Assembly: GCF_008298035.1 (NCBI RefSeq) | Contig: NZ_CP042910.1 | Span: 6,820,001 to 6,884,000 of the forward strand | DNA length: 64,000 bases | Direction of reading: 5' to 3' | From: Gimesia maris | GTDB lineage: Bacteria; Planctomycetota; Planctomycetia; Planctomycetales; Planctomycetaceae | Shown: piece after piece, positions 9,001 to 40,524 of the stretch | How positions within the stretch are numbered: position 1 is the stretch's first letter | Layout of the letters: each line of letters opens with the position of its first letter | Notes under the pieces: model-generated | What the model was told of the DNA's origin: nothing | Databases searched by the model: none | What the model saw: only the letters and a program-made list of their open reading frames with translations | Position numbers and translations under genes: made by a program

Positions 9001-12000
9001 TAGGATCTGCATACGTCTACACACGCTCGAACGGCGTCTGGACCTTCCAGCAGGAACTGAATGCTTCCGATGCCAAGTTTAACAGTTTTTTTGGCAGCAT
9101 TGTCACTATCGAAGGCGACACGATCGTTGTCGGGGCAAGAGTCGAAAACAACAACACTGGCTCCGCGTATGTCTTTACGCGAGTTGATGGAGTCTGGACC
9201 GAGACAGCGAAACTGGTGGCTGATGATGCTGAAGAAGAGATGAATTTCGCCAATACAATAGATATTGAGAATTCTACCATTGTCGTTGGAGCGATGTATG
9301 AATCTGAAACGTATCCAAGGAGTGGAGCCGTTTATATTTTTACCGAGCAGGATGGCGTCTGGACACAATCTCAGAAGCTGAAAGATTCTACCCCTGGCAC
9401 GTATGGGAGATTTGGTAATTCAGTCAGCCTGGAAGGTGATCTGCTCCTAATTGGTGCACCATCCTATCTGAATTATTCTCATAGTGCAGGAAAAGCCGTT
9501 CTTTACCAGCGCAACCCCGAAAATGGGTTATGGTCGCCTTTACAGAATCTGGTTGCATCAGACGCTGCATTTAATTCCCACTTCGGAAATTATGTGGAAA
9601 TCCATAATGAGCAGATTTTCGTTTCCGCAAGCTCTGATCCGACAGGAGTCGATGTGAACGGAGCGGTCTACCGTTTTGAGCAGGTAAATCAGGCCTGGGT
9701 TGAACAGCAGAAATTCAGTTCCCCGGATGCTGATCCCAGTGATTTTTATGGAGCGAGCTTTGTTGCCGCAAACGACATGCTACTGATCAGCGCTCGCTAT
9801 GATGACGATGTCGCCTTCAATACCGGTTCGCTCTATCTCTACGGACTTCCACAAAATCCGGCCATCACAATCGACGACGTCAGCATCACTGAAGCAGACG
9901 ATGGCTCCACCATGATCATCGCGAATGTCACACGCACCGCCACAAAACCTGGAGAACTGATTTTTGAGGCAACCGTCGATTTCAGCACCATCGATGGCAC
10001 CGCCACCATCGCAGACGGCGATTACGAAAACACGACAGGCACCATTACTTTTGAAAGTGATCCGAATGCCTCCAGTCAAACCCAGACCATTTCCATTCGC
10101 ATTTATGGCGATACTCTGCTGGAAACCGACGAAACGTTCGGCATCAAGTTACTGAATGTCACAGGCCATGCCCGCATCGCCGATTCGGAAGCGACTATCA
10201 CTATAGAAAATGATGACCAGGCGACGATCTCCATCAACGATGCGATCATCGACGAAGACGCCGGCAGCGTCTCAATCACGGTATCTCTCGACCATCCCAT
10301 CGATACGAGCATCAGTGTGGATTATGCCACGGCAGACCAGACGGCGAACTCTGCCAACGACTACACCACTACGACTGGCACATTGACTTTCAGCCCCGAA
10401 ATTCAGTCGCAAACCATTGTCATTGCCATCACCGACACAGATCTGGTGGAGTGGGACGAAACATTCCTCGTCAATCTCTCGGGACTCCAGACGAATGGAA
10501 GAAACGTGGTACTCGGAGACGCTCAGGCAGTCATCACCATTCATGATGATGACCAGGCGGCAATCTCCATCAACGATGCAACCATCGACGAAGACGCCGG
10601 CAGCGTCTCAATCACGGTATCTCTCGACCACCCCATCGATACGAGCATCAGTGTGGATTATGCCACGGCAGACCAGACCGCGAACTCTGCCAACGACTAC
10701 ACCACTACGACTGGCACATTGACTTTCAGCCCCGGGGATCAGTTACAAACCATTGTCATTCCCATTACCGACACTGATCTGGTGGAGTGGGACGAAACAT
10801 TCCTCGTCAATCTCTCGGGACTCCAGTCAAATGGAAGAAACGTGGAACTCGGAGATGCTCAGGCAGTCATCACCATTCACGATGATGACCAGGCGGCAAT
10901 CTCCATCAATGATATCTCTGTCTCTGAAGATGTGGGTACCGCGTTGGTAACCGTCACACTCGACATGCCCGTTACACAAACAATCAGTGTCAATTACGCA
11001 TTAAACGATCTGACAGCCCTCAGTTCTTCCGATTACACCGATACTTCAGGCACATTAACCTTTCTGCCTGGGGACCAGACAAAAACCATCAGCATTTCCA
11101 TTACCGACACTGATATTTTTGAAAATGATGAAATCTTCCAGGTACAACTCTCTCAGCTCCAGGCAAATGGATTAAATGTCGTGCTGGAAGATGATCTGGG
11201 GGAAGTTACCATCGTGGATGAGGCAAGCGGGTCGGCTGAGATTCAACTTCGCGTCGTAGATACTCCTACGATTACCGAACTCTCCGGCGAATCTGATACT
11301 TTACCCACACATCTGAACAATGTCAGTGAATGGGATACCTACTGGGTAGAATTCTGGATTGATACCAGCATACCTGTAAACCAGGGCGTCTTCTCGGCAG
11401 GGTTGGATTTCCATTACGATACAGCTTTCACTTCCGCTACAGAAATTGAATACGGAGCTGGTTTTGACACGAACCAGTCAGGGACCGTCGATGATCAGGC
11501 GGGAACCGTCTCGGATCTTTATGCGGAAACGAGTACAGATCATCTGGGTGAATCCCGTTTCCTGCTCTTTGCCCGACTGAAGTTTGAACCGCTGGCAACA
11601 GATCAGGTTGTCGTCGATATGGACGGCAAAAGTATCGGCCCCTATCACCTGGGGTTTGATATCACCTCCCAGCAGGTCTCCCTGAGTGGAGATGTTCCCG
11701 TCTATACATCAGTGTCAAACTTCTCTCAGACGCATATCTGGGCCAACCCGTTTGACTTCAATGATGATGACAAAATCAACTACCGGGATCTGATTCTTTT
11801 AGCAGGCGATTATAGTGATATCCCCAGTGAGTCTGATTCACAAAACAGCTGGATCTCTGATCTGAATCAGGACAACAAGGTGAATTATCGGGATTTAATT
11901 CTACTCGTCGGTAACTACGGAAAAAATAAAGCCGACAATCGCACTATCACCTACCCTGCCAACTATCCCGAGGTCTGGAATCAACATTTACTCGTCAATA

Positions 12001-12527
12001 CCCTGACAGAAGCAAAGCCGGATCCTGAAACAGTCACCCAGTCAGCTGCTGAAAATACGCTGACCTCGATTGTGAAACAAATTCAGCCAGAACTTGATCC
12101 TGTTCAACAGAATTCACTGGCACAGGTCAGTATTCAGGTCGTCGATTTGCAGGGAGATGCGCTCGGGCATGTTATTTCCAATACGATTTATATTGACGCG
12201 AATGCTGCAGGATATGGCTGGTTTATCGACACGACTCCTTTCGATCACTCCGAATTTGTTTATACCAGTGATTTAACACTCATTGCACTGGAAGACGGCC
12301 CGGCTGCGAACCAGGTTGATCTCTGGACCGTAATCATGCACGAGCTCGGTCACATTCTCGGAGTAGACCACGCAGCTGAAGGCGTGATGCAGAATACTCT
12401 GGATCCCGGCATTCGTAAACTGCCCGGGTTCCTGGAAACTCTGAATGAATCTTCTCAGCAGCCCGAAAATGAGATCGATGATTTCTTCTCGGATATGACG
12501 GAAGACATTGACCTGATTGTTCTGTAA
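1..12527 (+). CDS. Giant Calx-beta / FG-GAP surface protein with dockerin-like repeats and C-terminal metzincin motif (5' truncated)
   Basis: The reading frame is open from base 3, inside a Calx-beta repeat, so the gene starts upstream; about 4,174 residues are visible. I count about 22 complete Calx-beta repeats (units near 110 residues with an ISIDDITVNE-like start and ETFLVNLSNLQ-like middle). Three blocks of FG-GAP-like beta-propeller repeats interrupt them at about 1184-2300, 3354-4590 and 8656-9850. After the last Calx-beta repeat come a cohesin-like beta domain (about 11230-11740), two dockerin-type calcium loops (DFNDDDKINYRD and DLNQDNKVNYRD, about 11755-11930) and, at 12339-12371, HELGHILGVDH, the metzincin zinc motif HExxHxxGxxH, followed by a Met-turn-like GVMQ. 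Such proteins are typically exported, calcium-stabilised adhesins or matrix proteins. Whether the metzincin domain is active or processes the protein itself is not known. The signal peptide is outside the window. Confidence 0.93.
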   Translation, partial: ISIFDSLAIEGDETFLVNLTQIQSNGYNVIFADDQATVTIEDETPEISIDDITVNENAGNATLTVTLDQAVANTFTVDFATSDQTAKQTTDYLSTAGTLTFNLGQLTQTINVPLVDDGPLEFDETFLVSLFNIQSSGINVIFADAQAEVTIVDDEKPTISIDNVTIQETDSGTNNAVFTITRSGKNPGGLDFSEQIDFTTQDGTAIAGRDYIATQGSINFAADATALIQTATVEVQIYGDTYTELAETFLVLLSNTASQSTLLEEAGTGTINNDDSSQLLINDVTVDKAAGRALLTVTLTNPVEEAGLVSIDFETVAGTALPGIDYEPTSNIITFGPGEQSKTISIVTYNNTPDWQEPDKSFAVNLFNLKNSGLYVTPINSYATVVLENNNSVSEYEFNSKLYATENPQVDSHFGDQLSVDNNTLISSSPEGVTVYVRNQQGTPAYLFDDTWDIQALIQAPEGASDSNFGASIAISGDTIVIGANEAHAEGSTDLTGAVFIYTRNGSDWNLQQKITASQFGNGNFGSIVAIEGDLLVASSAEQIGRVYIFSRENGVWSEEAEVSGNISLDTVNYVSSLAIDNSTIVIGSNTESGYNHISTVAIVEKVNNVWSVTQKLENSDLGYGSSVDIEDNIIVVGAPDYATLSGGYTSRGRVLIYRLENGEWTGPSYLSDSYIANNTRFGKQVLLQDGLLLVSGNDFRGDADNNSKIHIFQFQGSDVQRQGEILTTDEDKDIIFAHSIGISDGTILIGAPDDTDPRNTGAIHIYGPAHPPIVSIDSARLAVKEDGSKELILEVTRSGSSPGDLSAEGSVEFSTFNLGISSSTFQSITGTFEFTGDPNAVSQTQIFHFSVNNTVNLDLENPLVLGMYNLSGDVFLPEAVSTPIDVFENPVLISIDDKVVSESDETVTLTVSLNQPLDTEISIDFATQSQTADRNDYQESSGTLTFAAGEQTKTITIDIRETNWVELAETFLVKLSNIQSDRADIFLIDSQAQVTIIDEDTATVSINDITVHEDDGKATLTVSLDHRVDSGITINFATVDQSAVDSEDYRSYSWVLEFSQYDYTQTIDITLTNDELFELTETFEVILSQLNSYGRSVTIADNTGIVEILDDDQSQFAEFDSKIFSSEIATDGYFGRAMAVDGDTLVVGSYFFSSHPTLEPAVYVYTRNDQGTTGIESDDTWEFQAKLTPSGGGTWVFGGAVAISGGIIVVGDTHDITNGEDSGAVYVFRRSGQTWSLDQKLVASDGGSHDYFGDEVAIENNTIVVGAYSADLRNSNGDVILENSGAVYVFNQEIDDWVENAKLVADDPQAGKSFGISLALDGNTILVGAPRDGLAGPQIPDSGNGAVYVFERTTSISKVWNQTQKLTPSRDYEGQHFGESVSIEGDTLVVGAGSYQKWDPDTRIYYRTGAAYVFTRNFYGDWSEQQILESETYQEVYFGDKVEIENGMIVVQSFNALPYPDSSRTLHVYSEQNHNWTLQEKFSGSDPVDNGAFGYNFGISGNTILISDVSNDEQASNAGVIYVRSLYNLPLVTIEDVTITEGDNGSQLVTVQVTRKGNKKGDLSIPALMEFTTLNGTATTLDGDYFEKSGTLAFEGDADALSQTRTISIYIQGDIRLEDDEEFYVELSNAIGMARLIQTTATVTITNDDRITISASDLTVNESEQSAEITVRLSHPVSEEVRVSYRTTGQSATTGTDFQSTSGTLIFNPGEQTKMITVPLINSEEVEGDEKFVVSLFSLVSGSTDITIPDPVYWVTIIDDDQAKVSISDLTIDEEAGFATLTVSLDQTVESNVSLDYSTVDGTALSGEDYESTTGTVTFNPGEQSKTITIPIINTNLIEADETFLVNLSNLQANGLDVILADTQAEVTITDSDQPSFSIDDITVNEDAGTATLTVTLDQPLTSVITVDFATADQDANSISDYQQQSGTLTFNPGETTKTIEIIILNSDSTEADETFLVNLLNPQSSIFQPTLTDNQAVVTIHDDDQSTLSIDDIAVDENTGTALITVSLDQKVEGVLTVDFATADQVAVSGTDYLATSGTLTFNPNNLTQTISVPLVNSELVELDEVFLINIFNLQTQGLAVSIADPQGEVTIRDDDRATVTIDELTVNEETGSATLTVSLDHPVDTSISLDYSTADGTAISGSDYQSTTGTLTFNPNQQTQTITIPLINTDLVEDEEYFLVNLSNLQPNGRDVVLGVTQTNVTITDTDQPAFSINDITVNEGTGTANVTVTLDQPLTSIVTVDFSTSDQTATSGSDYQAASGTLVFNPGDTSIIIQIPLIDTDSTEVDETFLVNLSNPQSSVYQPTLAVPQAVVTIQDNDPGSISINDITVDEGAGTALVTVSLDREANTAISVNYATADGSAVSGSDYQSTSGTLTFNPGDTSLTISIPLIDSDLIETAESFYVNLSNLQAPGLDVSLADDRGQVTIKDDDRAILSIQNLTVDEDIGTTLLTVSLDQPLLTSIAIDFETLNGTALANSDFTSTSGTLIFNTGITTQTISLTILDDDLQEPAESFFVKLSSLEQNGSPVDLVNDLAEITILDNDLAKLSINDIEVNEDLGTATLTVSLDRTLTTAFSVDFLTIDGTAEVNSDYLTNSGTLTFNPGDVTKTIDVSIVDSDNVELTETLQVQLTNLQAADYLVSLSDPVGEISILDDDQATLSIDDITVDENSGTAQLTVSLSQPVESTVLVEYATADQTAVALSDYLQTSGTLTFYSGETTKFITVNLVDNDQLETDENLLVNLSQLQSSADVIILDNQGLITIHDEDQATISLQDVIVSETAGKAILTVLLDKSVDSNVTLNFTTIDQSATSPEDYVSQSGILTFASGTKHQTIEIDLVDSAQVELLETFDVQLSNIQSDGLNFVFADDRATITIKDDDLGDYEWKSKLYAEGTVHPADVFGYNNAVDGDTLISGSPGWDHIHNGPEGPFLSYGGAFIYVRNDQGTPDYSGDDTWDYQSTLFASDADTYSDNYGWSVDISGDTAVVGAPQGDGTIDNIGSAYVYTRSNGVWTFQQELNASDAKFNSFFGSIVTIEGDTIVVGARVENNNTGSAYVFTRVDGVWTETAKLVADDAEEEMNFANTIDIENSTIVVGAMYESETYPRSGAVYIFTEQDGVWTQSQKLKDSTPGTYGRFGNSVSLEGDLLLIGAPSYLNYSHSAGKAVLYQRNPENGLWSPLQNLVASDAAFNSHFGNYVEIHNEQIFVSASSDPTGVDVNGAVYRFEQVNQAWVEQQKFSSPDADPSDFYGASFVAANDMLLISARYDDDVAFNTGSLYLYGLPQNPAITIDDVSITEADDGSTMIIANVTRTATKPGELIFEATVDFSTIDGTATIADGDYENTTGTITFESDPNASSQTQTISIRIYGDTLLETDETFGIKLLNVTGHARIADSEATITIENDDQATISINDAIIDEDAGSVSITVSLDHPIDTSISVDYATADQTANSANDYTTTTGTLTFSPEIQSQTIVIAITDTDLVEWDETFLVNLSGLQTNGRNVVLGDAQAVITIHDDDQAAISINDATIDEDAGSVSITVSLDHPIDTSISVDYATADQTANSANDYTTTTGTLTFSPGDQLQTIVIPITDTDLVEWDETFLVNLSGLQSNGRNVELGDAQAVITIHDDDQAAISINDISVSEDVGTALVTVTLDMPVTQTISVNYALNDLTALSSSDYTDTSGTLTFLPGDQTKTISISITDTDIFENDEIFQVQLSQLQANGLNVVLEDDLGEVTIVDEASGSAEIQLRVVDTPTITELSGESDTLPTHLNNVSEWDTYWVEFWIDTSIPVNQGVFSAGLDFHYDTAFTSATEIEYGAGFDTNQSGTVDDQAGTVSDLYAETSTDHLGESRFLLFARLKFEPLATDQVVVDMDGKSIGPYHLGFDITSQQVSLSGDVPVYTSVSNFSQTHIWANPFDFNDDDKINYRDLILLAGDYSDIPSESDSQNSWISDLNQDNKVNYRDLILLVGNYGKNKADNRTITYPANYPEVWNQHLLVNTLTEAKPDPETVTQSAAENTLTSIVKQIQPELDPVQQNSLAQVSIQVVDLQGDALGHVISNTIYIDANAAGYGWFIDTTPFDHSEFVYTSDLTLIALEDGPAANQVDLWTVIMHELGHILGVDHAAEGVMQNTLDPGIRKLPGFLETLNESSQQPENEIDDFFSDMTEDIDLIVL
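10213..10884 (+). repeat. Nearly identical tandem pair of Calx-beta units (336-nt period)
   Basis: Two consecutive 112-residue Calx-beta units are almost identical at the DNA level, with only scattered substitutions (for example GCGATC versus GCAACC near the start of each unit, and a short divergent stretch around 10395-10410 versus 10731-10746). The other units in this gene share only the protein consensus. The pair therefore looks like a recent in-frame duplication or gene-conversion tract. Confidence 0.85.
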
Positions 12528-27622: not shown

Positions 27623-30079
27623 TCAATCCCGATATCGTGCCGCCTGTTCCTGACGCTGGGCCTGGAGTGCGTCTGCAGAGACCACTTCCGAATACCGCCA
27701 GACCATCTCAACCATCTGCGCATGATCGATGGGTTTGGATAAGTAATCGTCACAGCCTCCCTGCAGGCAGCGTTCGCGGTCCCCCTTCATGGCATCGGCG
27801 GTGAGTGCGATAATCGGCGTTACCAGGTCGGCAGCCCGCAATTCTGCAATCGCCTTTAAACCATCCACATGAGGCATCTGCATATCCATGAGGATCACAT
27901 CAAATGGATCACCCGCATCACGGGCAATTAAAGCCATGTCGATTCCCTGTTGACCGTCTTCCGCTGTGATGACCGTGGCGCCTGCTTTCTCCAGAAAATG
28001 CTGGCTGATATGCCGGACTTCGCGACGGTCGTCAACGACCAGGACGCGACAGTTGAGACGATGAACTTTCGAAACCCCTTCTGCGCCCTCTGTTTTTCTT
28101 TCGAGGATACCAGATTCAATCAGCGGAATCCCTTTAATGGAGCCAGCGGGGAGCCGGATGCGGAAGATAGACCCCTGCCCGACTTCACTCTTGACCTTGA
28201 GCTGCCCTTTGAGCATCTGCACCAGTCGTTTACTGATTGCCAACCCGAGTCCGCTGCCTCCATAGGCCCGTGTGACCGACGAATCTCCCTGCGAGAACGG
28301 TTTAAACAGTCGCTGGATCTGATCGGCACTCATGCCGATACCTGTATCCTGCACAGCGAATTCGATGATCGGTTTATCGGAATCAGGAAGCAGCCTGATC
28401 ACCAGACGAACTTCGCCCTGATCGGTAAACTTGATGGCATTTCCAATCAGATTAATCAGGATCTGTCGCAGTCGGGTGGCATCCGTAACGATCTTTTCAG
28501 GAACCTGTCCGGTAAATTTGACATTTAGCATCAGGTTCTTCTCGTCGGCCCGTACCTGCATCAGTGTCTGCACGTCCGCAACCAGCTCGCGCAGCGATGC
28601 TTCATTCAGATCGACTTCAAGTTTCCCTGCCTCAATACGTGATAGATCAAGAATGTCGTTAATCAATTCCAGCAGGTGTTCTCCATTTCGTTTCATGATC
28701 ATGACGCAGTTCCGGTTATCAGGATCCTTCAGATGCCCAAGCAAAACGTCAGCGTAACCTAAAACAGCAGCCATCGGAGTACGAATTTCATGGCTCATAT
28801 TCGCCAGAAATTCACTCTTGGCAAGGTTCGCCTGTGATGCCTGCTGCTCACTGTCCCGCAACGCTTCTTCCATCTCTTTACGGGCCGTAATGTCCTGCAC
28901 GATTGAACTCACCCCCCAGACTTCACCATTCCGATGCGTCATCGGGTGATAATTCACCAGCCAGCAGCGTTCTTTGTCGCTGGCGGGCGTTTTACCGCGT
29001 ACTTCCTGATTTTTCACCGCCTTGCCTGTCTGAAATACCTGATCGTAGAGTGGTTTGATCCGGTCTGCGATTCCGGGAACCAGTTCAAAACAGACTCGCC
29101 CGAGATGCGCTTCACGGGAAATGCCATTGATGCGGGCCAGTGTATCATTGATCCGCAGGTAACGGTATTCGCGATCGACCAGCCCCATGCCCACAGGTGC
29201 CGTATCGTAAATCAGTTCCAGTTCCCGTTTCTGGCGGCTGGACTCTGCCTCGGCGGCGCTCAGGCTTTCTTCTGCCATCCGCTGCTCATGAATGTCACTT
29301 ACCGTACCAACCCATTCCAGGATCTGCCCTTCCTGATCAAATACCGGAACTGCTTCTGTAATAACGGGGCGATACGATTCGCTCTCTGCATGCCAGATGT
29401 GGCCATGCACACGATAACTGGACTGCTTACCCGCCGGCTTACTCCAGAGCGCAGCCAGTTCGGCTCGATCTTCCGGCAGCAGCGCTCTCAGCCACCCGTC
29501 TCCCTGGTGATCATCCCAGGTCTGGCCGGTGAAACGCTGCCAGGATATTTGCGGTACAATGAAATTCCCCCGCGGATCAGTGGTCCAGATAATACTGCTG
29601 GTACTATTTAAGAAAGCTTCATAGCGGGACTGCATCCAGCGCAGGTCTCTTTCGATTTCCTTCCGCTGCTCAACTTCTTCCAGCAGTTTTGTATTGGCCG
29701 CTGCGAATGAGGGGAACTGCAACAGGTGCGGAATGTATTTAATTAATGCAATTACAGTTGCCCAGGATACGACAGCGGTCGCCAGCTTTAACAATCCCGA
29801 TATGCGATAAATCGGATACCAGAAAATGATCGCTTCAACCAGATGCACGGTGCCACATAACAGGATGAAAGCAGCAAATAAACCGAACAGTCTTGTATAG
29901 GGAATATCACGCCGTTTAAACGTGAAATAAATCAGTACAATGGGGATTGCAGTATATGCAGACCAGGTACCGATATCGGATAGAATATGCAGCCAGCCTT
30001 CGCCACTCGTCCAGTTGCCACAATTCCAGCGGGCAGGGTAGTCCGATGTATCAAAGAGTTTCGAAAAGAACTCAACCAT
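27623..30079 (-). CDS. Hybrid sensor histidine kinase with ethylene-receptor-type membrane domain
   Basis: 818 residues: three membrane helices (about 30-120), two PAS domains (about 145-270 and 285-402), a HisKA domain with phospho-acceptor His430 (MSHEIRTPM), a HATPase domain (Asn547 N-box, DTGIGM, GGSGLGLAIS) and a receiver domain with phospho-acceptor Asp732 (ILMDMQMP). The membrane domain aligns without gaps to plant ETR1 through the copper/ethylene site: Asp35, Tyr42, Ile45, Pro46, Ile72, Cys75 and His79 correspond to ETR1 Asp25, Tyr32, Ile35, Pro36, Ile62, Cys65 and His69, and TAVVS in helix 3 also matches. It therefore probably binds Cu(I) and possibly ethylene or a related small molecule. 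PAS domains replace the GAF domain of ETR1. The gene is alone; no separate response regulator is adjacent. Confidence 0.93.
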   Translation of the reverse strand: MVEFFSKLFDTSDYPARWNCGNWTSGEGWLHILSDIGTWSAYTAIPIVLIYFTFKRRDIPYTRLFGLFAAFILLCGTVHLVEAIIFWYPIYRISGLLKLATAVVSWATVIALIKYIPHLLQFPSFAAANTKLLEEVEQRKEIERDLRWMQSRYEAFLNSTSSIIWTTDPRGNFIVPQISWQRFTGQTWDDHQGDGWLRALLPEDRAELAALWSKPAGKQSSYRVHGHIWHAESESYRPVITEAVPVFDQEGQILEWVGTVSDIHEQRMAEESLSAAEAESSRQKRELELIYDTAPVGMGLVDREYRYLRINDTLARINGISREAHLGRVCFELVPGIADRIKPLYDQVFQTGKAVKNQEVRGKTPASDKERCWLVNYHPMTHRNGEVWGVSSIVQDITARKEMEEALRDSEQQASQANLAKSEFLANMSHEIRTPMAAVLGYADVLLGHLKDPDNRNCVMIMKRNGEHLLELINDILDLSRIEAGKLEVDLNEASLRELVADVQTLMQVRADEKNLMLNVKFTGQVPEKIVTDATRLRQILINLIGNAIKFTDQGEVRLVIRLLPDSDKPIIEFAVQDTGIGMSADQIQRLFKPFSQGDSSVTRAYGGSGLGLAISKRLVQMLKGQLKVKSEVGQGSIFRIRLPAGSIKGIPLIESGILERKTEGAEGVSKVHRLNCRVLVVDDRREVRHISQHFLEKAGATVITAEDGQQGIDMALIARDAGDPFDVILMDMQMPHVDGLKAIAELRAADLVTPIIALTADAMKGDRERCLQGGCDDYLSKPIDHAQMVEMVWRYSEVVSADALQAQRQEQAARYRD

Positions 30080-30599: not shown

Positions 30600-31087
30600 G
30601 TGCGACAATATGCCGCAGCCGACACCAAGCAGACGGAACCGGTCGATCGCCACCTGCTGTTGCGCAGCGGCCTGATGCAGGCGAGTTACAATAACCACCC
30701 CACAGCGCTGAGAAAACAGAACGCTGATGGCATCTTGACGGGTCTGGAAATCATCCGCACCGATCTGCGTGCGACACGAGTGGTGGTGCTCTCCGCCTGT
30801 GAAACCGGCGTTGGTGAATTTCGTTCGAGAGAAGAAGTCGTCGGCCTCCGCCAGACATTCCAGCTGGCAGGCGCAGAATTGGTGGTCGTTTCCCTCTTCC
30901 CTCTGGAGCATCCCTGACCAGCAAACCGTGCTGCTAATAGAACAGTACTTCACCAATTTAGCAGCAGGCATGAAAAAATCGACCGCCCTCAGACCGCCCC
31001 AGCTCACCCGCATCAAAGCACGTCACGAACGCAACGCCTCCCTTCCCCCTCTTCTGGGCTGCATTTACACTGACGGGGAAGGATTGA
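30600..31087 (+). pseudogene. Frameshifted remnant of a CHAT-domain (caspase-like) protein
   Basis: The region encodes the C-terminal part of a CHAT protease-like domain in three successive frames. Frame 3 gives LLLRSGLM, NADGILTGLEI and VVVLSACETGVGE (the CHAT Cys motif SACETG). At 30890-30903 a 7-base tandem duplication (TTCCCTC twice) shifts the frame; removing one copy restores VVVSLWSIPDQQT. The second segment reads IEQYFTNLAAGMKKSTALR, and near 31040-31052 a further shift leads to FWAAFTLTGKD and a stop at 31085-31087, the usual CHAT ending. The N-terminal part, including the expected catalytic His region and any TPRs, is missing. CHAT proteins are cysteine peptidases often linked to TPRs and sometimes to defence. 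Confidence 0.82.
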
Positions 31088-31131: not shown

Positions 31132-34100
31132 TTATCCCACCGCTTGACGTGCCATTTGTCGATAAAGTTTGGCTGGTACAGCATGTTGAAGTCGCCAGAT
31201 GATACTCATAGGTCGGTCTCCAGTATGGGATACATATTTGCAAGGACCAAGGTAATAATAAGGGGAGGCAAGGCCTGATGTTTGTTTTTTGGTTTCCCTT
31301 ACAAACAAAAGTGGTGTGTATCCACAACTTTGATGTTTAATGTACCTTTGGCCTGTAGGAGATTCTGATGAAGTATTGCTCTGCGATTGCCAGTGAAATA
31401 GTTCATGCGAAATTAAATAGTCTTCGTACATCGTTGTCGGGGAATACTCTTCTTCCGTTTTTTGTAAAGTGACAAAGAAGGCATCAATCTTTTTATTTTT
31501 CAGATGCAGTACTCCCTCACGATGATCTGGCCGATGTTCGAGAGACCAGTGTCCCAGACCAACTAATATTTCATCACGCGTGTATTGCGCATGAATCGTT
31601 AAGGGTCCTGAGACTTCAGGAAGACGTCCAGCGTGAAGTGAAGGAGCTTTCTGAAAACAGAAGTCAAGAACTGAGACTAAATCCTGTTTGGCAGCCTGAT
31701 TATCAAATAATCGATTCTTTGACTCTTGGATGGTCCAACCTAAACCAGTTTTTCCCCAGAGTGTGACGTAGAGCATTTCTAATGCTTGTTTCTCTTCATT
31801 AGAAGACGGCATCAGTGCATTTTCAATGTGTTTGGTCCAGTATTTAATTTGCGTTGCACAATCTATATGTATTAATCGACGTAATCCTTTCGCGAGTTGT
31901 ATTTCGTCAGAATCTGTAAATGGTTCAATGAGATCTGCTTCTGCGAGCAAACGAGACCAGAGTCCCCGTTTTAATAAATCATCTAAGTTAGTTTGTAGAT
32001 AATCCAATGCTTCTTGAAGGAATGGACTACGTCCAAGGATTCGTCCTAATTCTTTAAGGCGTATGATGATGGTTAATTTATTGAGTCTTAATGAATCACG
32101 GATATTGTCTAATACACGCTGTTGTGCAACACGTTCCAATTGAACCACGCAACCGCTCGGTAAATGAGGGAAACCATTTTCGATTTCGCGATCCAGACGT
32201 CGTTCGGGTTTTGTACTGAGTGCACGAAATCTCGATGCAAATTGAAATTCCCGCCGTTGAGCACCAATGAAATCCAGTATTGTTAAACATTCTTTCTCGT
32301 CATGAAGACGCATACCTCGCCCAAATTGTTGAAGAAAGATGGTGAGACTTTCTGTGGGACGAAGAAAAAGAATTGTATCGACTTCTGGAATATCAACTCC
32401 TTCGTTATACAAATCGACAACAAAGATAAAGTTGATTTCTCGCGAACGAAGCTGAGTCTGCACTTGGTTTCTTAGTTCATCAGAAGAATCGGAGGTCAAT
32501 GCAACTGCAGGAACACCATGCTCCTGAAAGAAACGTGCCATGAACTCAGCATGAGCTTTACTCACGCAAAAACTCAGCCCTCGAGATTCCAATGGATTGA
32601 GCAGGATTTCATTAGTCTTTTCCAATATCAATTGGGCACGGCGATCGTTGCCAGTATAGATTCGATCTAAGTCATCAATTGCATACCCACCTCGTTGCCA
32701 ATTCAGATCATCAAGGTTTTCACTATCTGAGATACCAAAGTATTGAAACGGACAAAGTAATTTACGATTGATGGCATCAGGTAGTCTAATTTCTGCGCTA
32801 GTTCGACCACCGAACCATTGTAGGATATCGAGTTGATCCGCTCGCTCTGGTGTTGCTGTTAGCCCAAGCAAAATATTAGGACGAACGTGATCTAGTAGAC
32901 TTTGGTAGCTTTGAGCTGCGGCATGATGAAATTCATCGACAACTATGTATTCATATTCATCAGCGGGACGTTTCCAGAGTTCTCGCGAGTTATAGCTTTG
33001 TATCGAACAGAATAGATGTTGCTGCTGAGAAGGATCACGCCCTCCCACTAAGAGATCTCCAAAATTCTGATCTCGTAGTACGCCACGAAATGATGCGAGT
33101 GCTTGTTTCAAGATCTCTTCTCGATGCACTATGAAGAGGAAAGGAGGTTGGCGGCCATTTTCTTTGCAGACTCGTGCATAATCGAAAGCAGCTAACATGG
33201 TCTTACCCGTACCGGTTGCGGCGACAACTAGATGTGTCCTTTTGTTCTGGACTTCACGCTCTGCAACCAGGATATCCAATATTTCTTCTTGAAAAGGATA
33301 TGGGCGAAGATGAAATACAGGCAGCATGGCTGGATCAGATGCACTCAGCCGTTCATTTTTAATTGCAGATCTCAGCCGTTCAGGGTCTTCACCACTGAAT
33401 TGCTGGAATTCATCATCCTGCCAATATGTCTCAAAGGTTCCCGTGATCTTGCTCCAAAGATACGAGAGCTCATATTGGCTAACCTTTGTTGTCCATTCGA
33501 GTCCTTCAGAAAGGGCGGCATTGGAAAGGTTTGCTGAACCGACGTAGGCGCTGCCGAAATCAGTATCGCGATGAAAGAGATAGGCCTTGGCATGCAAACG
33601 GGTTCGTTTCGTATCATAACTGACGCGAATCTCTGTATTGGGAAGTCCACTTAATGCTTCAATTGCCTTTGGATCGGTAGCTCCCATATAGCTTGTAGTG
33701 ATAACCCGAATGCGGGGACGATCTGAGTGGGGGCTTGAAGCCAATTCTTTCAAGTCATCTAGAATTACACGAAGCCCACTCCATTTCACAAAGGAACAAA
33801 GAATATCAACAGAATCTGCAGTTGATATCTCTTTTTTTAATTGGCTTCCCAAACTGGGGTCGAGCCGTGTCCCCGTTAGAAGTGCAGAGCGAGATAATGG
33901 GGTATCAGGACGATTTTCAGGAGTTTCAGGATCGGTATGATGAATTGCCAGTAGTCGTTCGAGCGGTGTTGCAATACGTAATCGATTTTCCCAATCTTGT
34001 CCTAGCTCCTCTGTAAGCAATTTCAGAATTCGATCGACTAAACGTTTTTGTTTCTCCGCTGCTTCTTTACCTCGAAATCCAGCAATCCCATTTGCTAAAA

Positions 34101-34257
34101 CATGTTCTAGGTATTGAGCAATTACAGTATGTGCATCTTCGGTATCAACTTTACCTATGGTGGCGTAGAGACGCGGGTCGGCGATTGCCTGTAACTGTTC
34201 TTTTAATTCTTCAGTTAGAAGCTGTTCATAGAGTCCCGGCTGGAAGTTGTCAGTCAT
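31132..34257 (-). CDS. DEAD/DEAH-box helicase with PLD-like nuclease domain and DUF3427
   Basis: 1,041 residues from ATG 34257, chosen over TTG 34275 because AGGA lies six bases upstream. The N-terminal part carries a PLD-like phosphodiesterase motif (LHAKAYLF at about 221-228, then SAYVGSANLS). A superfamily 2 helicase core follows, with Walker A in AATGTGKT (about 347-354), DEFHH (441-445), LGLTATPER and motif VI QQFGRGMR. The C-terminal region from FPHLPSGCVVQLERVA is DUF3427. Known homologues with this order (PLD, helicase, DUF3427) are scattered among bacteria, often in variable regions; a DNA-processing or defence role is plausible but unproven. The coding sequence is visibly richer in A/T than its neighbours, which suggests acquisition. 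It ends 45 bases from the CHAT remnant. Confidence 0.9.
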   Translation of the reverse strand: MTDNFQPGLYEQLLTEELKEQLQAIADPRLYATIGKVDTEDAHTVIAQYLEHVLANGIAGFRGKEAAEKQKRLVDRILKLLTEELGQDWENRLRIATPLERLLAIHHTDPETPENRPDTPLSRSALLTGTRLDPSLGSQLKKEISTADSVDILCSFVKWSGLRVILDDLKELASSPHSDRPRIRVITTSYMGATDPKAIEALSGLPNTEIRVSYDTKRTRLHAKAYLFHRDTDFGSAYVGSANLSNAALSEGLEWTTKVSQYELSYLWSKITGTFETYWQDDEFQQFSGEDPERLRSAIKNERLSASDPAMLPVFHLRPYPFQEEILDILVAEREVQNKRTHLVVAATGTGKTMLAAFDYARVCKENGRQPPFLFIVHREEILKQALASFRGVLRDQNFGDLLVGGRDPSQQQHLFCSIQSYNSRELWKRPADEYEYIVVDEFHHAAAQSYQSLLDHVRPNILLGLTATPERADQLDILQWFGGRTSAEIRLPDAINRKLLCPFQYFGISDSENLDDLNWQRGGYAIDDLDRIYTGNDRRAQLILEKTNEILLNPLESRGLSFCVSKAHAEFMARFFQEHGVPAVALTSDSSDELRNQVQTQLRSREINFIFVVDLYNEGVDIPEVDTILFLRPTESLTIFLQQFGRGMRLHDEKECLTILDFIGAQRREFQFASRFRALSTKPERRLDREIENGFPHLPSGCVVQLERVAQQRVLDNIRDSLRLNKLTIIIRLKELGRILGRSPFLQEALDYLQTNLDDLLKRGLWSRLLAEADLIEPFTDSDEIQLAKGLRRLIHIDCATQIKYWTKHIENALMPSSNEEKQALEMLYVTLWGKTGLGWTIQESKNRLFDNQAAKQDLVSVLDFCFQKAPSLHAGRLPEVSGPLTIHAQYTRDEILVGLGHWSLEHRPDHREGVLHLKNKKIDAFFVTLQKTEEEYSPTTMYEDYLISHELFHWQSQSNTSSESPTGQRYIKHQSCGYTPLLFVRETKKQTSGLASPYYYLGPCKYVSHTGDRPMSIIWRLQHAVPAKLYRQMARQAVG

Positions 34258-34469
34258 TTTGATTCCTGATATCAATTCATCGTGGTGCCTGCCTCAATGG
34301 TTTCTTTATCACTGTAATCAGAACTCAAATGAAAGACTACTGGCTGGAACAAGCTGATCAATCCAAAAATCAAATAATTTGGCTTAGTGATTTGCCATTG
34401 TTTTTGAGTTATTTTCTGAGATAAGATGAGAACGAAATTAGTATTCTCGAAATAAAAGAAAGCCCACAC

Positions 34470-35751: not shown

Positions 35752-38700
35752 TTATTCTACCGCTTCCCCGGCGTCCAGCAGTTCCACATGCCAGATGAGT
35801 CGTTGCTGTTTCTGATTGGTTTTGCGATTAAACAGATCCAGCGGCCCCTTCCCCGTACGGGCCATCGGAACTCCTTTGACTGACGGGACTCCGGCAATGG
35901 GCACGCGGGGGACCGTCAGTTTCTCTTTGATCGTATCATCAATTTGAATCTCTGCATCAGACTGACTTTGTTCCTGCTGGTTGTCAGCAAAATGCAGGTG
36001 CAGATTGTGCTGACCTGCCGACAGTTCCCGGGTGAAATAGTCTGTCTCGACTGGCTGTCCTCCGGAAGCATCGACCGAGAACAGATGCACGCGGGCAGTC
36101 TTTCCCTGCGGAACCACACAACTCCAGGCATGCCAGTTTTTGTAGTCGCGTCGACCACCGGCCACGACCAGATCTCCTGGTTCGACCTTGAGGGGCACAA
36201 ACTGATGCGATTCTGCGGGAATCACCTTAAAGAGTGGGGTGCCGTCCACACTCTCGCGGACCGGGGCAATGAACTGCTTGCGGACGCCGTCCCAGTATAT
36301 TTTGCGTGGTGCCTGGGTTCCATTGGGTAAAACGCCACAGACAAGATGATCCGGTCTACTGCCATTAAATCCTAAATCCAGATAACCAAATTCTGCCAGT
36401 GGCTGTGAAGGGCCTGGCTTGCCGCTCCAACTGGTCGCGTTCGCATAGCCATAAAAGGTGAGCGCCGGCTTGTCTTCTTGTCCGATCTGATACCAGTGCT
36501 GGATATATTCAAAGGGACCATGCGTTTCAAAAGCAGAGGTGGTAATGAAATAATCATCGGTCCCCCCCAGGTTATTGAGCATGACATTGCAGTAGGAACC
36601 TCGGGAAGAAGCCCAGCCCCCCAGCATTCGAATCAGTGTGCCTTCCGCATCGAAGACAAACGCGGCTCGAGGCGGAAACCGGAGTTTGGGTTTGAGCTCC
36701 CAGGTAGCGTCTTTGGGGCGGACTGCACATAACACGATGACGCGTTCACCCTGCGGTGTGGCAATCGTAGCGATCGGAGATCGTTCAGACTTTTTTGAAC
36801 TGATTTTCCCAATCAGGTTCCAGTCGCTCGTAAATTGAAGCGGAGTGGCAGCGTCGAACTGATTCATTTTCAGCAGTCCATTAAGAACGACCATCGAGGG
36901 TTGTGTCTGCAGTTTTTTGAGAAGTAATTTCGGCAAATGACTCAATAGTGCTTCCGGCTTTTCATAGGTGACAGCAACATCAAAGAACTGGTTTTTCTCT
37001 CTGGGTTCTTCTTTGGAAATGGTCAGCACGACCACCCGCCCGTCTGCCTTGCGGGGAATGATCAGTCTTTTGCGTTGTACGTAAGCGTCGCGTAACGTAC
37101 CTTCTATTTTCACACGCCCCTGAACGGTAATTCGCAGTCGGGAGACCGCCTCCCCGTTGACTTCCAATGGAAGTTGCAGTCGAACGATGCCGTCATCCCC
37201 CGTTTTCTCTGAGGCCATTGGCCCAAACCGCTGGGACGCCCAGAGCTGCCAGTCATCAGGCGCGTTTTCAAAGGCGATTTCGTTCACGGTGACGGTGATC
37301 CCGGGAACCGGTTCGGCGTTTTGATTCACGACAAGAATTTCTCGTGACGAGACCGGCACATATTTTTCCATCGTAATGGTCCGTCGCAGCGTTTTACCGC
37401 CTGACAGATCAATTAAGGCGTATCGCCTCGGCCCATCTTCAAAGGAGTTGGGGTAAATCGGCATTTGATACCCGTCCGCAGAAACCTTGTAGGATTCACT
37501 GTCTTCAGCGGGCAGGTTCCGTACCCGGGCAATGCCCTGTGCATCCGTTTTCACACTCAGAAAAGTATCGTTCCCCCATTGATAGCGCTGTTTGACTTCC
37601 TCATTGTTATGACGAATAATCTGGTTCGACATCTCTAAGGAAACTATCGCCGGAATGAACAGCTCCCCACCAAAAAATAACCCGTTGGGATTGAATTTGA
37701 CCACAGCTCCTTCGATTGGTTGTCCAAGGGGATCGACCACTTTGACGTCCAGTGATGTCGTTGGCGTGCAGGGTAGTTCCACCTCGGTTTTATAAAGACC
37801 CTGTGTGAGCGGAAACAGGTGCGGCCAGAACGCGTCGTGCCGCTGGATGGCATTGTCGAGAATCGATTCCTCTCCGGCGTTGTGCCGCTTCAGATAGTTT
37901 TTCAATGACTGGACCGTTGGTCGGGTCGACTGATAACCGTCCACGAGTGCAAACAGTTGGGCCTGACCGCCGGTCGGCAGGGAGTCGAATTCGAACGTAC
38001 CGTCTTCTTTGACTGTCGCTGTCTGTTCCCAGGTCCAGCCTCCGCCGATCTTGTGATCCTGACCTTCATTGATATAGAGTTCCACGCAGCCATTTTTGAT
38101 TGGCCGCGGCACCGAGTCGTCCAGTCGACCTTCCAGGCGGATACCCGGTTCGAGGATCGCTACGATCGTGCCATCCTCTTCTACGCGCTGGGGGTTGGTC
38201 ACATCGATCAGGTGGCTGAACAGGACCGGCCCCTCTTCGTTTCTGGCCACAACCCGCATCCAGCGACGATCCAGCTTCACAACCGGCGAAGTAAAATAAC
38301 CCAGACGCTGATCATCCTGTTTGAACTCGCGGCCCAGAATGTGCGAGTCTTCCAGCAGGGGATACGCATCGGGCAGTCGGTTTCCTTTCACATCGAGCGC
38401 CTTGACGCGAATGATTCGCCCCGGCTGCAGGACCAGTTTGGGACTGCCGCTGAGTGAATATTGTTTTCCCGCGTTCGCATAGCCCTCCGCTTCAGCAGAG
38501 ATCTGTGCGCGAGCGGCACCGTCAGGTACCTGGATGGTCACCTCCCCTTTCTGATTGGTGATCGGAGGATTGATGACAATTTTGAGTTGCATGTCACCTT
38601 CGTTATCCTCCCACCAGCCAACACGGACTTTGGCACCTTCAACGGGTTGCCCCTTGTCGTCGACAACAGTCACGATCTTCGGTGTTGTCTGTTTCAGATT

Positions 38701-40020
38701 AATATCAGCTTTGCCCGGTTTTCTGACCATCGGATCTGCGGCCGGTTTCTTTGCATTCACTTTTTCCTGTTTGTCTTTGGGCTCCGGCTTGGAGGCATCC
38801 AGGGGCAAGTCCGGTTTCTGGGCGATGACCTGGTGACTGAAACGAACAGAGGCAATGCCGACAAACAGCAGAACCGTCAAGAGCAGACAGACATAGCAGC
38901 GGGAGCGTTTCAGTGTATTAAAATCGCGTGGCGTCTCCAGCCATTTTAATCTGCGAAGCAGGAAACTGCGATCGGCCATTGCCAGTGCCGACGCGCGGGT
39001 TTCTGCTCCCTGACGATGCAGCGCCCAGCCAGCCAGCAACTGCCGATAGCTTTCAATGTCGTCAATCGAATCTGCGGCCAGTGCATCGGACATGTGCTCA
39101 CACGCCAGCCGATGCCGTGCAGTCAACCGCCAGACCAGTGGATGAAACCACCAGATTGCAGACACGAGACGTGAGAGCAGGTCCCAGAATAAGTCGAAGC
39201 TGGCCACGTGCGATAATTCATGCATCAGAATCGCGCGGCGTTCGGACTGAGATAATTCATTGACCCAGGAAACAGGGAGCAAGATAGAAGGTTTAATCAG
39301 TCCGACGGTACAGGGGCCTTCTATCTGCGGCGAAACGCGAACCGGTGGTCCATGATTGAAATTGAACTGCGCCGCCAGTGCTTCACATTCACTCTGCAGT
39401 GAAGCGGGCGCTGTTTCTGCATAACATAACAGTTTCCTCACCCGTTGAATCTGCCAGCCGATGCGCAGAAGTAAAAGCAAACTGACGGCGCCCCAACAGA
39501 CCAGCCACCAGGAGATTTCTGATGGAACCGGCGAAGCTGTCTGCCGGACTGTAATAGAATGCGTTCTGATTTCAGATTCAACAGGAGTGACTGCCGCCGC
39601 TGGTAGATCTGACTCAGCTTGCGTGTCTGAAGGGATATCGGCAACCGATGGTTCTGATGCCATCTTCGCGTCGGATTGTTTCGGCTCCGGCGAAACCGTC
39701 GGAAAGTTCAGGGGGGCAGGTTGCAGGGAAACAACAGGCTCCGGCTCTACGCTTTCTGAAATGACAGGTGTCTCATTTTCTCTGAAAGTCTCTGTTGAAT
39801 CTGCGGTTTCTGACTCAACCGGGGGTAAAACCGCCAGACTGGTGACAGGCAGACAGAGACAGGCCAGAGGCATGAGCAGAGCTGCGAAAATCAGGCAGCG
39901 TGAGAGCAGTATCGACCAGCGCGGATTGCGATTGCGGATCAGTCTTAGTATCACCCAACCCAGTGCCAGTAGCAGACTCAGTCGGACCAGTGTGTGTATG
40001 ATGAAAGTGACGTCATCCAT
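35752..40020 (-). CDS. M56 (BlaR1-like) membrane metallopeptidase with long Ig-like C-terminal region
   Basis: 1,422 residues. The N-terminal membrane part (helices near 5-28, 40-58 and 170-188) leads to the zinc site HELSH (267-271) with third ligand Glu308 in CEHMSD, then a further helix at about 375-392. This is the BlaR1/MecR1 protease core, which cleaves a BlaI-type repressor after a signal. The remaining about 1,000 residues lie outside and contain several carboxypeptidase-regulatory/Cna-B-like beta domains (VVDDKGQPVEGAKV, VVDPLGQPIEGAVV, VVNQNAEPVPGITV) and an unrecognised tail, instead of a penicillin-binding sensor. The BlaI-like gene is directly upstream (51 bases) on the same strand, so both form an operon. 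The signal sensed is unknown. Confidence 0.9.
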   Translation of the reverse strand: MDDVTFIIHTLVRLSLLLALGWVILRLIRNRNPRWSILLSRCLIFAALLMPLACLCLPVTSLAVLPPVESETADSTETFRENETPVISESVEPEPVVSLQPAPLNFPTVSPEPKQSDAKMASEPSVADIPSDTQAESDLPAAAVTPVESEIRTHSITVRQTASPVPSEISWWLVCWGAVSLLLLLRIGWQIQRVRKLLCYAETAPASLQSECEALAAQFNFNHGPPVRVSPQIEGPCTVGLIKPSILLPVSWVNELSQSERRAILMHELSHVASFDLFWDLLSRLVSAIWWFHPLVWRLTARHRLACEHMSDALAADSIDDIESYRQLLAGWALHRQGAETRASALAMADRSFLLRRLKWLETPRDFNTLKRSRCYVCLLLTVLLFVGIASVRFSHQVIAQKPDLPLDASKPEPKDKQEKVNAKKPAADPMVRKPGKADINLKQTTPKIVTVVDDKGQPVEGAKVRVGWWEDNEGDMQLKIVINPPITNQKGEVTIQVPDGAARAQISAEAEGYANAGKQYSLSGSPKLVLQPGRIIRVKALDVKGNRLPDAYPLLEDSHILGREFKQDDQRLGYFTSPVVKLDRRWMRVVARNEEGPVLFSHLIDVTNPQRVEEDGTIVAILEPGIRLEGRLDDSVPRPIKNGCVELYINEGQDHKIGGGWTWEQTATVKEDGTFEFDSLPTGGQAQLFALVDGYQSTRPTVQSLKNYLKRHNAGEESILDNAIQRHDAFWPHLFPLTQGLYKTEVELPCTPTTSLDVKVVDPLGQPIEGAVVKFNPNGLFFGGELFIPAIVSLEMSNQIIRHNNEEVKQRYQWGNDTFLSVKTDAQGIARVRNLPAEDSESYKVSADGYQMPIYPNSFEDGPRRYALIDLSGGKTLRRTITMEKYVPVSSREILVVNQNAEPVPGITVTVNEIAFENAPDDWQLWASQRFGPMASEKTGDDGIVRLQLPLEVNGEAVSRLRITVQGRVKIEGTLRDAYVQRKRLIIPRKADGRVVVLTISKEEPREKNQFFDVAVTYEKPEALLSHLPKLLLKKLQTQPSMVVLNGLLKMNQFDAATPLQFTSDWNLIGKISSKKSERSPIATIATPQGERVIVLCAVRPKDATWELKPKLRFPPRAAFVFDAEGTLIRMLGGWASSRGSYCNVMLNNLGGTDDYFITTSAFETHGPFEYIQHWYQIGQEDKPALTFYGYANATSWSGKPGPSQPLAEFGYLDLGFNGSRPDHLVCGVLPNGTQAPRKIYWDGVRKQFIAPVRESVDGTPLFKVIPAESHQFVPLKVEPGDLVVAGGRRDYKNWHAWSCVVPQGKTARVHLFSVDASGGQPVETDYFTRELSAGQHNLHLHFADNQQEQSQSDAEIQIDDTIKEKLTVPRVPIAGVPSVKGVPMARTGKGPLDLFNRKTNQKQQRLIWHVELLDAGEAVE

Positions 40021-40071
40021 TTTCAGGTCCTCTACCAGTTTAAATTTCGAAAAGGAGAAAAGTGTCGTCCA

Positions 40072-40428
40072 TCACGATTCGCCGCGGGCAATCTTCTTGA
40101 GCTGTTTGAGTTCTTCAGGACTCAAACGTTCCTTCTCTGCCAGCTCCATCAGCAGTTGACCCGTGGAACCCCCGGTAAAGACTTCTGCCAGCCTCCTGAC
40201 AGTTTGTCGCAGTTGTGTTTCGCGTTTGACTTTTGGCGAATAGAGATAAGCCCTTCCATTACGTTTCCGCGTCAGCAGTCCACGCTCGACCATGCCGACC
40301 AGTACGCTGCGCAGGGTACCGTTATCGATGTCCCAGCCAAACGATTCCTGGAGTTCAGCCGGCTTTTGAGGCGACTTGTTCCATAACAGACGCAACACTT
40401 CGAGTTCATTCTGATTGGGTTGATCCAT
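40072..40428 (-). CDS. BlaI/MecI/CopY-family transcriptional repressor
   Basis: 118 residues from ATG 40428; GAGG lies seven bases upstream, and an ATG frame extension to 40482 would run through the operator. The winged-helix region (NELEVLRLLWNKSPQKPAELQE, TLRSVLVGMVERGLLTRKRNGRAYLYSP) is typical, with a C-terminal dimerisation helix set (LLMELAEKERLSPEELKQLKKI). Repressors of this family bind inverted repeats as dimers and are inactivated by their partner M56 protease. The M56 gene follows after 51 bases. Two TGTGA-N5-TCACA palindromes just upstream are the likely autoregulatory operators. Confidence 0.9.
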   Translation of the reverse strand: MDQPNQNELEVLRLLWNKSPQKPAELQESFGWDIDNGTLRSVLVGMVERGLLTRKRNGRAYLYSPKVKRETQLRQTVRRLAEVFTGGSTGQLLMELAEKERLSPEELKQLKKIARGES

Positions 40429-40468
40429 AAGAAAGCCTCTTTCCAAAAGGAGAAACACCATTCCTATC

Positions 40469-40524
40469 TGTGATCTTTTCACACTTCGAGAGAAACATCA
40501 AGACAAATATGTGAACTTTTCACA
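40469..40524 (-). promoter_or_regulatory. Paired palindromes, probable operators of the first BlaI/M56 operon
   Basis: TGTGATCTTTTCACA (40469-40483) and TGTGAACTTTTCACA (40510-40524) share 14 of 15 bases, each with TGTGA/TCACA half-sites five bases apart. Their centres are 41 bases apart, close to four helical turns. They lie 41-97 bases upstream of the repressor start, where BlaI-family operators are expected. The sequence differs from the classical TACA/TGTA-type BlaI site. Confidence 0.72.

Follow-up and report, generated by a model that had tools for sequence, protein, structure and literature searches.

Can a hybrid histidine kinase of a planctomycete sense ethylene? This question is raised by a gene in a stretch of 64,000 nucleotides of the Gimesia maris genome (NCBI RefSeq assembly GCF_008298035.1, contig NZ_CP042910.1, positions 6,820,001 to 6,884,000 of the forward strand), referred to here as the window. 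An initial annotation, made from the sequence alone, placed a membrane domain with an ethylene-receptor-type copper site at 29720-29992, which on the minus strand are the codons for residues 30-120 of an 818-aa kinase. We found that the domain is, by profile and alignment, a whole-domain relative of the plant ethylene receptor sensor, and that it sits in a separate, supported branch of that family, found in five phyla. The planctomycete host proposed in the annotation was borne out, the nearest named relatives being Gimesia.

A hybrid kinase with an ethylene-receptor-type membrane domain

Searching the protein against Pfam gave a match to ETR1_N of 118.3 bits, against a curated cut-off of 27, over profile positions 3-96 of 97. 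The match is significant and spans the whole domain, and a whole-genome profile search found ETR1_N at the same place in the kinase gene. The two PAS domains, kinase core and receiver described in the initial annotation were all recovered by Pfam as well. With the HisKA histidine, the HATPase and the receiver aspartate all present, the protein is, judged by its domains, a hybrid histidine kinase.

We then compared the domain with Arabidopsis ETR1. A gap-free alignment at an offset of +10, from the Asp of helix 1 to the His of helix 2, had been claimed and holds: Asp35 and His79 of the kinase, like Asp25 and His69 of ETR1, are 44 residues apart. Likewise, the seven ETR1 residues said to be critical for ethylene binding or receptor function are each identical in the kinase (Asp35, Tyr42, Ile45, Pro46, Ile72, Cys75, and His79). 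The offset falls to +7 in helix 3, where the matching lysine reported earlier is Lys98, aligned to ETR1 Lys91, and where TAVVS is also located. Of the ETR1 residues, Tyr32, Ile35, Pro36, and Ile62 are ones that we take to be ethylene-binding residues. Asp25, Cys65, His69, and Lys91 are named in the accessible part of PMC11819568.

To see how these residues vary, the profile was searched against 392 planctomycete genomes, sampled evenly over the phylum and including the source genome; all profile-based domain counts cover Planctomycetota only. An ETR1_N-type domain was found in 42 of the 392 genomes, a count that is possibly low, with many genomes having just 12 first-look candidates scored. 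We analyzed 54 of the 56 domain places, leaving out two pieces of one gene of genome G130, contig C92; because the window domain and several close relatives are among the 54, they are not independent. The Tyr, Cys, and His were invariant (54/54), while the Asp and the equivalent of Lys91 were each present in 52 of 54. All seven residues were identical in 44 domains. Among the ten exceptions, five (L078, L076, L048, L050, and L047) had a change at only one of the two Ile positions; L063 is a weak match with three changes, and in L070 the domain start lies in another frame, so the first-helix residue is not meaningful. Relatives L071, L075, L077, and L122 carry Phe or Ser at the equivalent of ETR1 Pro36 and retain the Cys, His, and Asp, with L122 additionally having Val for the equivalent of Ile62; these natural variants are suited to probing the role of this proline.

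Ranked by conservation, the seven columns stood at positions 4, 5, 6, 15, 16, 17, and 19 of 126, and none of 100,000 random seven-column sets had an equally low rank sum. Columns outside the seven were equally conserved (for example, Ser98, Ala95, Thr94, Phe58, and Phe61 of ETR1), so the whole domain core is kept and not the seven residues alone. A short-motif or chance resemblance to ETR1 is ruled out by the whole-domain match together with these ranks.

A structure prediction proposed in the initial annotation yielded a confident model. The AlphaFold2 model, built with 46 of the 54 planctomycete rows (model residue n being protein residue n+1), has three predicted helices and a mean pLDDT of 93.7. 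Hydropathy over 19 residues exceeded 1.6 at helices 2 and 3 only. ETR1 has its N-terminus outside and the loop between helices 1 and 2 inside; a Lys-Arg-Arg in the corresponding loop of the kinase fits the same predicted orientation. In every part that sequence can test, the interpretation given in the annotation is supported, copper and ethylene binding being its inferred part.

Two branches of the domain family

Of 72,556 plasmid records searched in translation, 18 had a match, including one of Azospirillum brasilense Sp7. The match on the Sp7 plasmid (L165) starts with MFGGVEAFF and is 525 aa long. Since the accessible text of PMC11819568 gives this start in the cloning primer of AzoEtr1 and the same length, L165 is AzoEtr1. 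According to that text, 14C-ethylene was bound in yeast by residues 1-130 of AzoEtr1, and disrupting the gene left A. brasilense with little or no ethylene binding. Among the experimentally proven binders compared, AzoEtr1 is the nearest: the window domain is identical to it at 52 of 126 positions (41%), and to ETR1 at 39 of 110 over the aligned domain. Another plasmid match (L166, from a Blastomonas plasmid of an algal phycosphere) is a family kinase; its plasmid is mobilizable, and two response-regulator genes lie nearby on the opposite strand. Among 50,697 phage records there was no match at E up to 0.01.

Named genomes were scanned with two patterns: the first required FI, C, and H in helix 2, the second GW[LT]HI and SD before and in helix 1. 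The scan gave at least 572 relatives among at least 588 stretches. The best 80 of these comprised 43 from Planctomycetota, 18 from Bacteroidota, 9 from Verrucomicrobiota, 2 from Myxococcota, 1 from Acidobacteriota, and 7 without a phylum, the phyla being taken from record titles, many of them of metagenome bins. The patterns favour the window's own type; the best 80 were therefore excluded from residue counts and cannot show that the HGxC type described below is absent from those phyla.

Rows were typed by the motif before helix 1, either RWxCG or HGxC, and then compared with trees built from the domain only (126 columns). The quick tree held 142 rows, without L063 and L070 and with 9 of the 18 plasmid records. 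The careful tree held 59 rows: 14 HGxC rows together with ETR1, three that lack both motifs (L067, L076, and L080), and, from the RWxCG rows, the window domain plus every third of the rest. SynEtr1 and the Geitlerinema receptors lie outside the trees, and the placement of two long rows, ETR1 and L166, may be wrong. In the careful tree, ETR1 and five planctomycetes share the HGxC side (support 99/93) with cyanobacteria and with alpha- and betaproteobacteria, including AzoEtr1. The RWxCG rows, including the window, formed one side of a separate branch (support 99/94), and the quick and careful trees agree. By both motif and tree place, the window protein is outside the branch that holds AzoEtr1 and ETR1. 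Belonging to the HGxC clade is not what makes a protein an ethylene receptor. Three rows with neither motif (L066, L137, and L142) grouped with RWxCG rows in the quick tree and are absent from the careful one. The 54 planctomycete domains divide into 43 RWxCG (window included), 5 HGxC, and 6 with neither motif.

The columns parting the 121 RWxCG rows from the 14 HGxC rows, besides the R17-W18 that defined the branch, were I32, F86, and V109. At least 90% of rows in both branches had the same letter at C20, W23, D35, Y42, I45, F68, F71, I72, C75, G76, H79, T101, and S105, among others, some of the rows having been collected with patterns that require I, C, and H. Six of the seven binding residues and Cys20 thus reach 90% in both branches. 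Pro46 and Lys98 fall below it: two of the 14 HGxC rows (L071 and L075) have Phe at Pro46, and the Lys98 column over 143 rows has 122 Lys and 17 Arg. Both branches share the copper ligands, while the binding-tested proteins placed on the trees sit on the other side from the window.

We compared the kinase with known receptors. ETR1 is also a kinase with a receiver, has GAF in place of PAS, and in plants signals through CTR1 and EIN2; for all its identity at the seven residues and Lys91, it has two N-terminal cysteines where the window kinase has one. A paralogue in the same genome (L032, G000:C1:2240988-2241275) resembles the window kinase in its RWxCG-type domain, two PAS domains, and kinase, and differs in its length of 1114 aa, two receivers, and own Hpt. 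AzoEtr1 is alike in the domain but belongs to the HGxC branch and has, according to the part of PMC11819568 available, one PAS, no receiver, and a separate overlapping response-regulator gene, whereas the window kinase has two PAS domains and its own receiver. GeiEtr2 of Geitlerinema PCC 7105, compared by architecture and not by sequence, likewise combines PAS, kinase, and a C-terminal receiver with an ethylene-binding domain in a single protein, but it is cyanobacterial and has PAC and GAF (PMC6682694, accessible part).

In the literature available to us, mostly in partial text, bacterial ethylene receptors have been published from Synechocystis, Geitlerinema (one a hybrid with a receiver, PMC6682694), and Azospirillum (PMC11819568). 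The accessible sections of reviews list cyanobacteria and proteobacteria, besides eukaryotes, as holders, and PMC11819568 states that there are putative receptors in other bacterial phyla. We found no papers on planctomycete members in a search that had most subscription papers outside it; surveys (Lacey and Binder 2016, Wang 2006, Papon and Binder 2019) may list some. Bacterial ethylene receptors, including a hybrid with a receiver, are already known, and the part that could matter is the RWxCG branch. Relative to the literature found, the placement of the window protein in this separate supported branch, present in five phyla, is new.

Proposed mechanism and alternatives

The best reading, to which we give a probability of roughly 0.65, is that the protein is a membrane-bound, Cu(I)-dependent hybrid kinase that senses ethylene or a small olefin and feeds a phosphorelay. 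Cu(I) would be held by Cys75 and His79 of helix 2 in the three-helix N-terminal domain, and the copper would in turn bind a small olefin, most probably environmental ethylene. Asp35 and Lys98 may couple ligand binding to a helix shift, which would travel through both PAS domains to reach the kinase core, raising or lowering phosphorylation of His430. From His430 the phosphate would pass to Asp732 of the attached receiver, then to a separate Hpt protein and a response regulator. The genome contains six Hpt matches, two of which lie in open frames, one of 111 aa and one of 127 aa, the latter only just over threshold (26.5 bits against a cut-off of 24.6); these two frames could be relay partners of the kinase. 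A copper ATPase is present in the genome above the curated cut-off. The same family passes the cut-off in 13 of 14 control genomes, so it gives no special clue.

Several observations weigh against this reading. The conserved residues point to a kept copper-type site but say nothing on which gas binds, and no binding assay of any member of the RWxCG branch was found in the literature searched. By sequence, no solved structure resembled the domain at E up to 1, and Foldseek with the domain model gave none at E up to 0.001 and 34 weak matches up to E 10. Next to the kinase there is neither a response regulator nor a copper or ethylene gene. Its flanks are common to a 90% relative (L085) and not to 69% relatives (L036 and L040), so the context is silent on the ligand. 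The kinase is also patchy in the genus: full-protein relatives at 69% identity or more occur in 9 of 17 genomes (own included), seven of them full-length; in G399 and G395 the gene is in pieces, and G395 lacks the membrane domain.

The same Cys/His site might instead report periplasmic or membrane copper, ethylene not being the natural signal. The copper ligands are kept in all 54 planctomycete domains, even in the ten missing at least one of the seven residues, as such a Cu(I) sensor would suggest. We nevertheless consider it unlikely, given that all seven ETR1 residues are kept in 44 domains, that none of the 14 commonest neighbour clusters from 115 loci has the look of a copper gene (judged visually from the opening 150 letters of a single protein per cluster), and that the homologue AzoEtr1 is an ethylene receptor (PMC11819568, accessible part). 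About equally improbable is that specificity has diverged in the RWxCG branch toward another small ligand, such as CO, another alkene, or a volatile sulfur compound. The split from the AzoEtr1/ETR1 branch and the branch's own commonest residues at I32, F86, and V109, besides R17-W18, argue for such a change; the branch-specific residues, however, fall outside the seven binding residues.

The window kinase gene is under purifying selection. It is identical to the Gimesia relative L085 at 736 of 818 residues, with a dN/dS of 0.064 (0.05-0.06 in each domain), which over an intact frame rules out a degraded gene. In this comparison the membrane domain (97/106) is kept about like the rest (receiver, 114/123). 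Against the more distant L040, with synonymous sites at or close to saturation, the membrane domain is the best preserved part (86/106), compared with 86/121 for PAS1, 70/121 for PAS2, 169/234 for the kinase, and 91/123 for the receiver. That the membrane domain is a relic merely anchoring a kinase whose PAS domains sense is very unlikely, for although PAS domains are ordinary sensor modules, the gene is patchy in the genus, and the domain is kept no better than others against L085, a mere anchor needs neither an invariant Cys and His nor a hardly varying Asp and Lys, and the L040 comparison and the low dN/dS also speak against it.

Genomic setting, outputs of relatives, and significance

The features of the kinase gene are collected in Table 1.

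Table 1 Features of the window kinase gene, in window positions.
Feature	Position	Strand	Basis
Hybrid histidine kinase gene, 818 aa	27623..30079	-	ATG at 30079-30077; single open frame, Pfam architecture
Ethylene-binding-type membrane domain (Pfam ETR1_N, PF25487), residues 28-121	29717..29998	-	E=1.8e-34
Helix 1, residues 25-55, with Asp35, Tyr42, Ile45, Pro46	29915..30007	-	AlphaFold2 model
Helix 2, residues 62-84, with Ile72, Cys75, His79	29828..29896	-	AlphaFold2 model
Cys75-Gly-Thr-Val-His79, predicted Cu(I) ligands	29843..29857	-	Aligned to ETR1 Cys65/His69; Cys and His invariant 54/54
Helix 3, residues 91-119, with Lys98 and TAVVS	29723..29809	-	AlphaFold2 model
PAS domain 1 (PAS_3), residues 179-260	29300..29545	-	Pfam
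PAS domain 2 (PAS_4), residues 292-402	28874..29206	-	Pfam
HisKA, residues 420-485, phospho-acceptor His430 (by motif, SHEIRTP)	28625..28822	-	Pfam
HATPase_c, residues 533-645	28145..28483	-	Pfam
Receiver domain, residues 679-793, phospho-acceptor Asp732 (by motif)	27701..28045	-	Pfam

An operon partner or copper gene as a clue to the ligand was rejected, none adjoining the kinase. The next gene upstream (31135-34275, minus strand) has PLD-like, ResIII helicase, and DUF3427 domains and was called by PADLOC as a type IV methyl-directed restriction enzyme (1.8e-229). Between the two, at 30603-30914 on the plus strand, lies a CHAT-domain fragment (profile positions 172-233 of 289) that looks like a gene remnant. 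Farther on, 35755-40482 (minus strand) encodes a BlaR1-type M56 peptidase with a long tail matching a carboxypeptidase-regulatory-like domain and adjoins a penicillinase-repressor-type regulator. An open frame of 4112 aa occupies 189-12527 on the plus strand.

Twenty relatives were scanned with Pfam for architecture, and their outputs proved diverse. Kinase with receiver(s) and Hpt was found in L032, L034, L037, L047, and L050. L041, L068, and L074 are short forms (211-315 aa) in which no kinase was detected, some of which may be cut. L041 and L037, from two genomes of one genus, had identical membrane domains in the tree input; the L041 frame ends at 303 aa within the first PAS, and the L037 frame reaches 1690 aa. 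At L066:5633-7636 (minus strand), an ethylene-binding-type domain is joined to PAS, GGDEF, and EAL, a possible link to cyclic di-GMP. The commonest neighbour cluster occurred in 50 of 115 dereplicated loci of relatives, and judging from the printed sequence letters we take it to be two-component proteins; the counts are rough, with 99 domain frames recognised and with clustering by single linkage possibly merging kinases and regulators. A same-strand frame lay within 150 bases downstream in 27 of the 115 loci, 15 of the 27 being receiver-like by eye.

RWxCG proteins of Planctomycetota, Verrucomicrobiota, Bacteroidota, Myxococcota, and Acidobacteriota may, at somewhat less than even odds, be genuine receptors for ethylene or small olefins, which would make them a second large receptor family alongside the branch of cyanobacteria, proteobacteria, and plants. 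If so, the sensing of olefin gases would be much more widespread in bacteria than the accessible sections of reviews say, and its origin would be less bound to cyanobacteria than stated there. Whether this large gene set is rightly called ethylene receptors turns on ethylene binding in the RWxCG branch. Planctomycetota are often dominant on macroalgal surfaces (PMC12628686, accessible part), so algal ethylene may be a natural signal for them. Should the domain bind ethylene, this hormone gas of plants and algae could be perceived by non-photosynthetic bacteria from several phyla.
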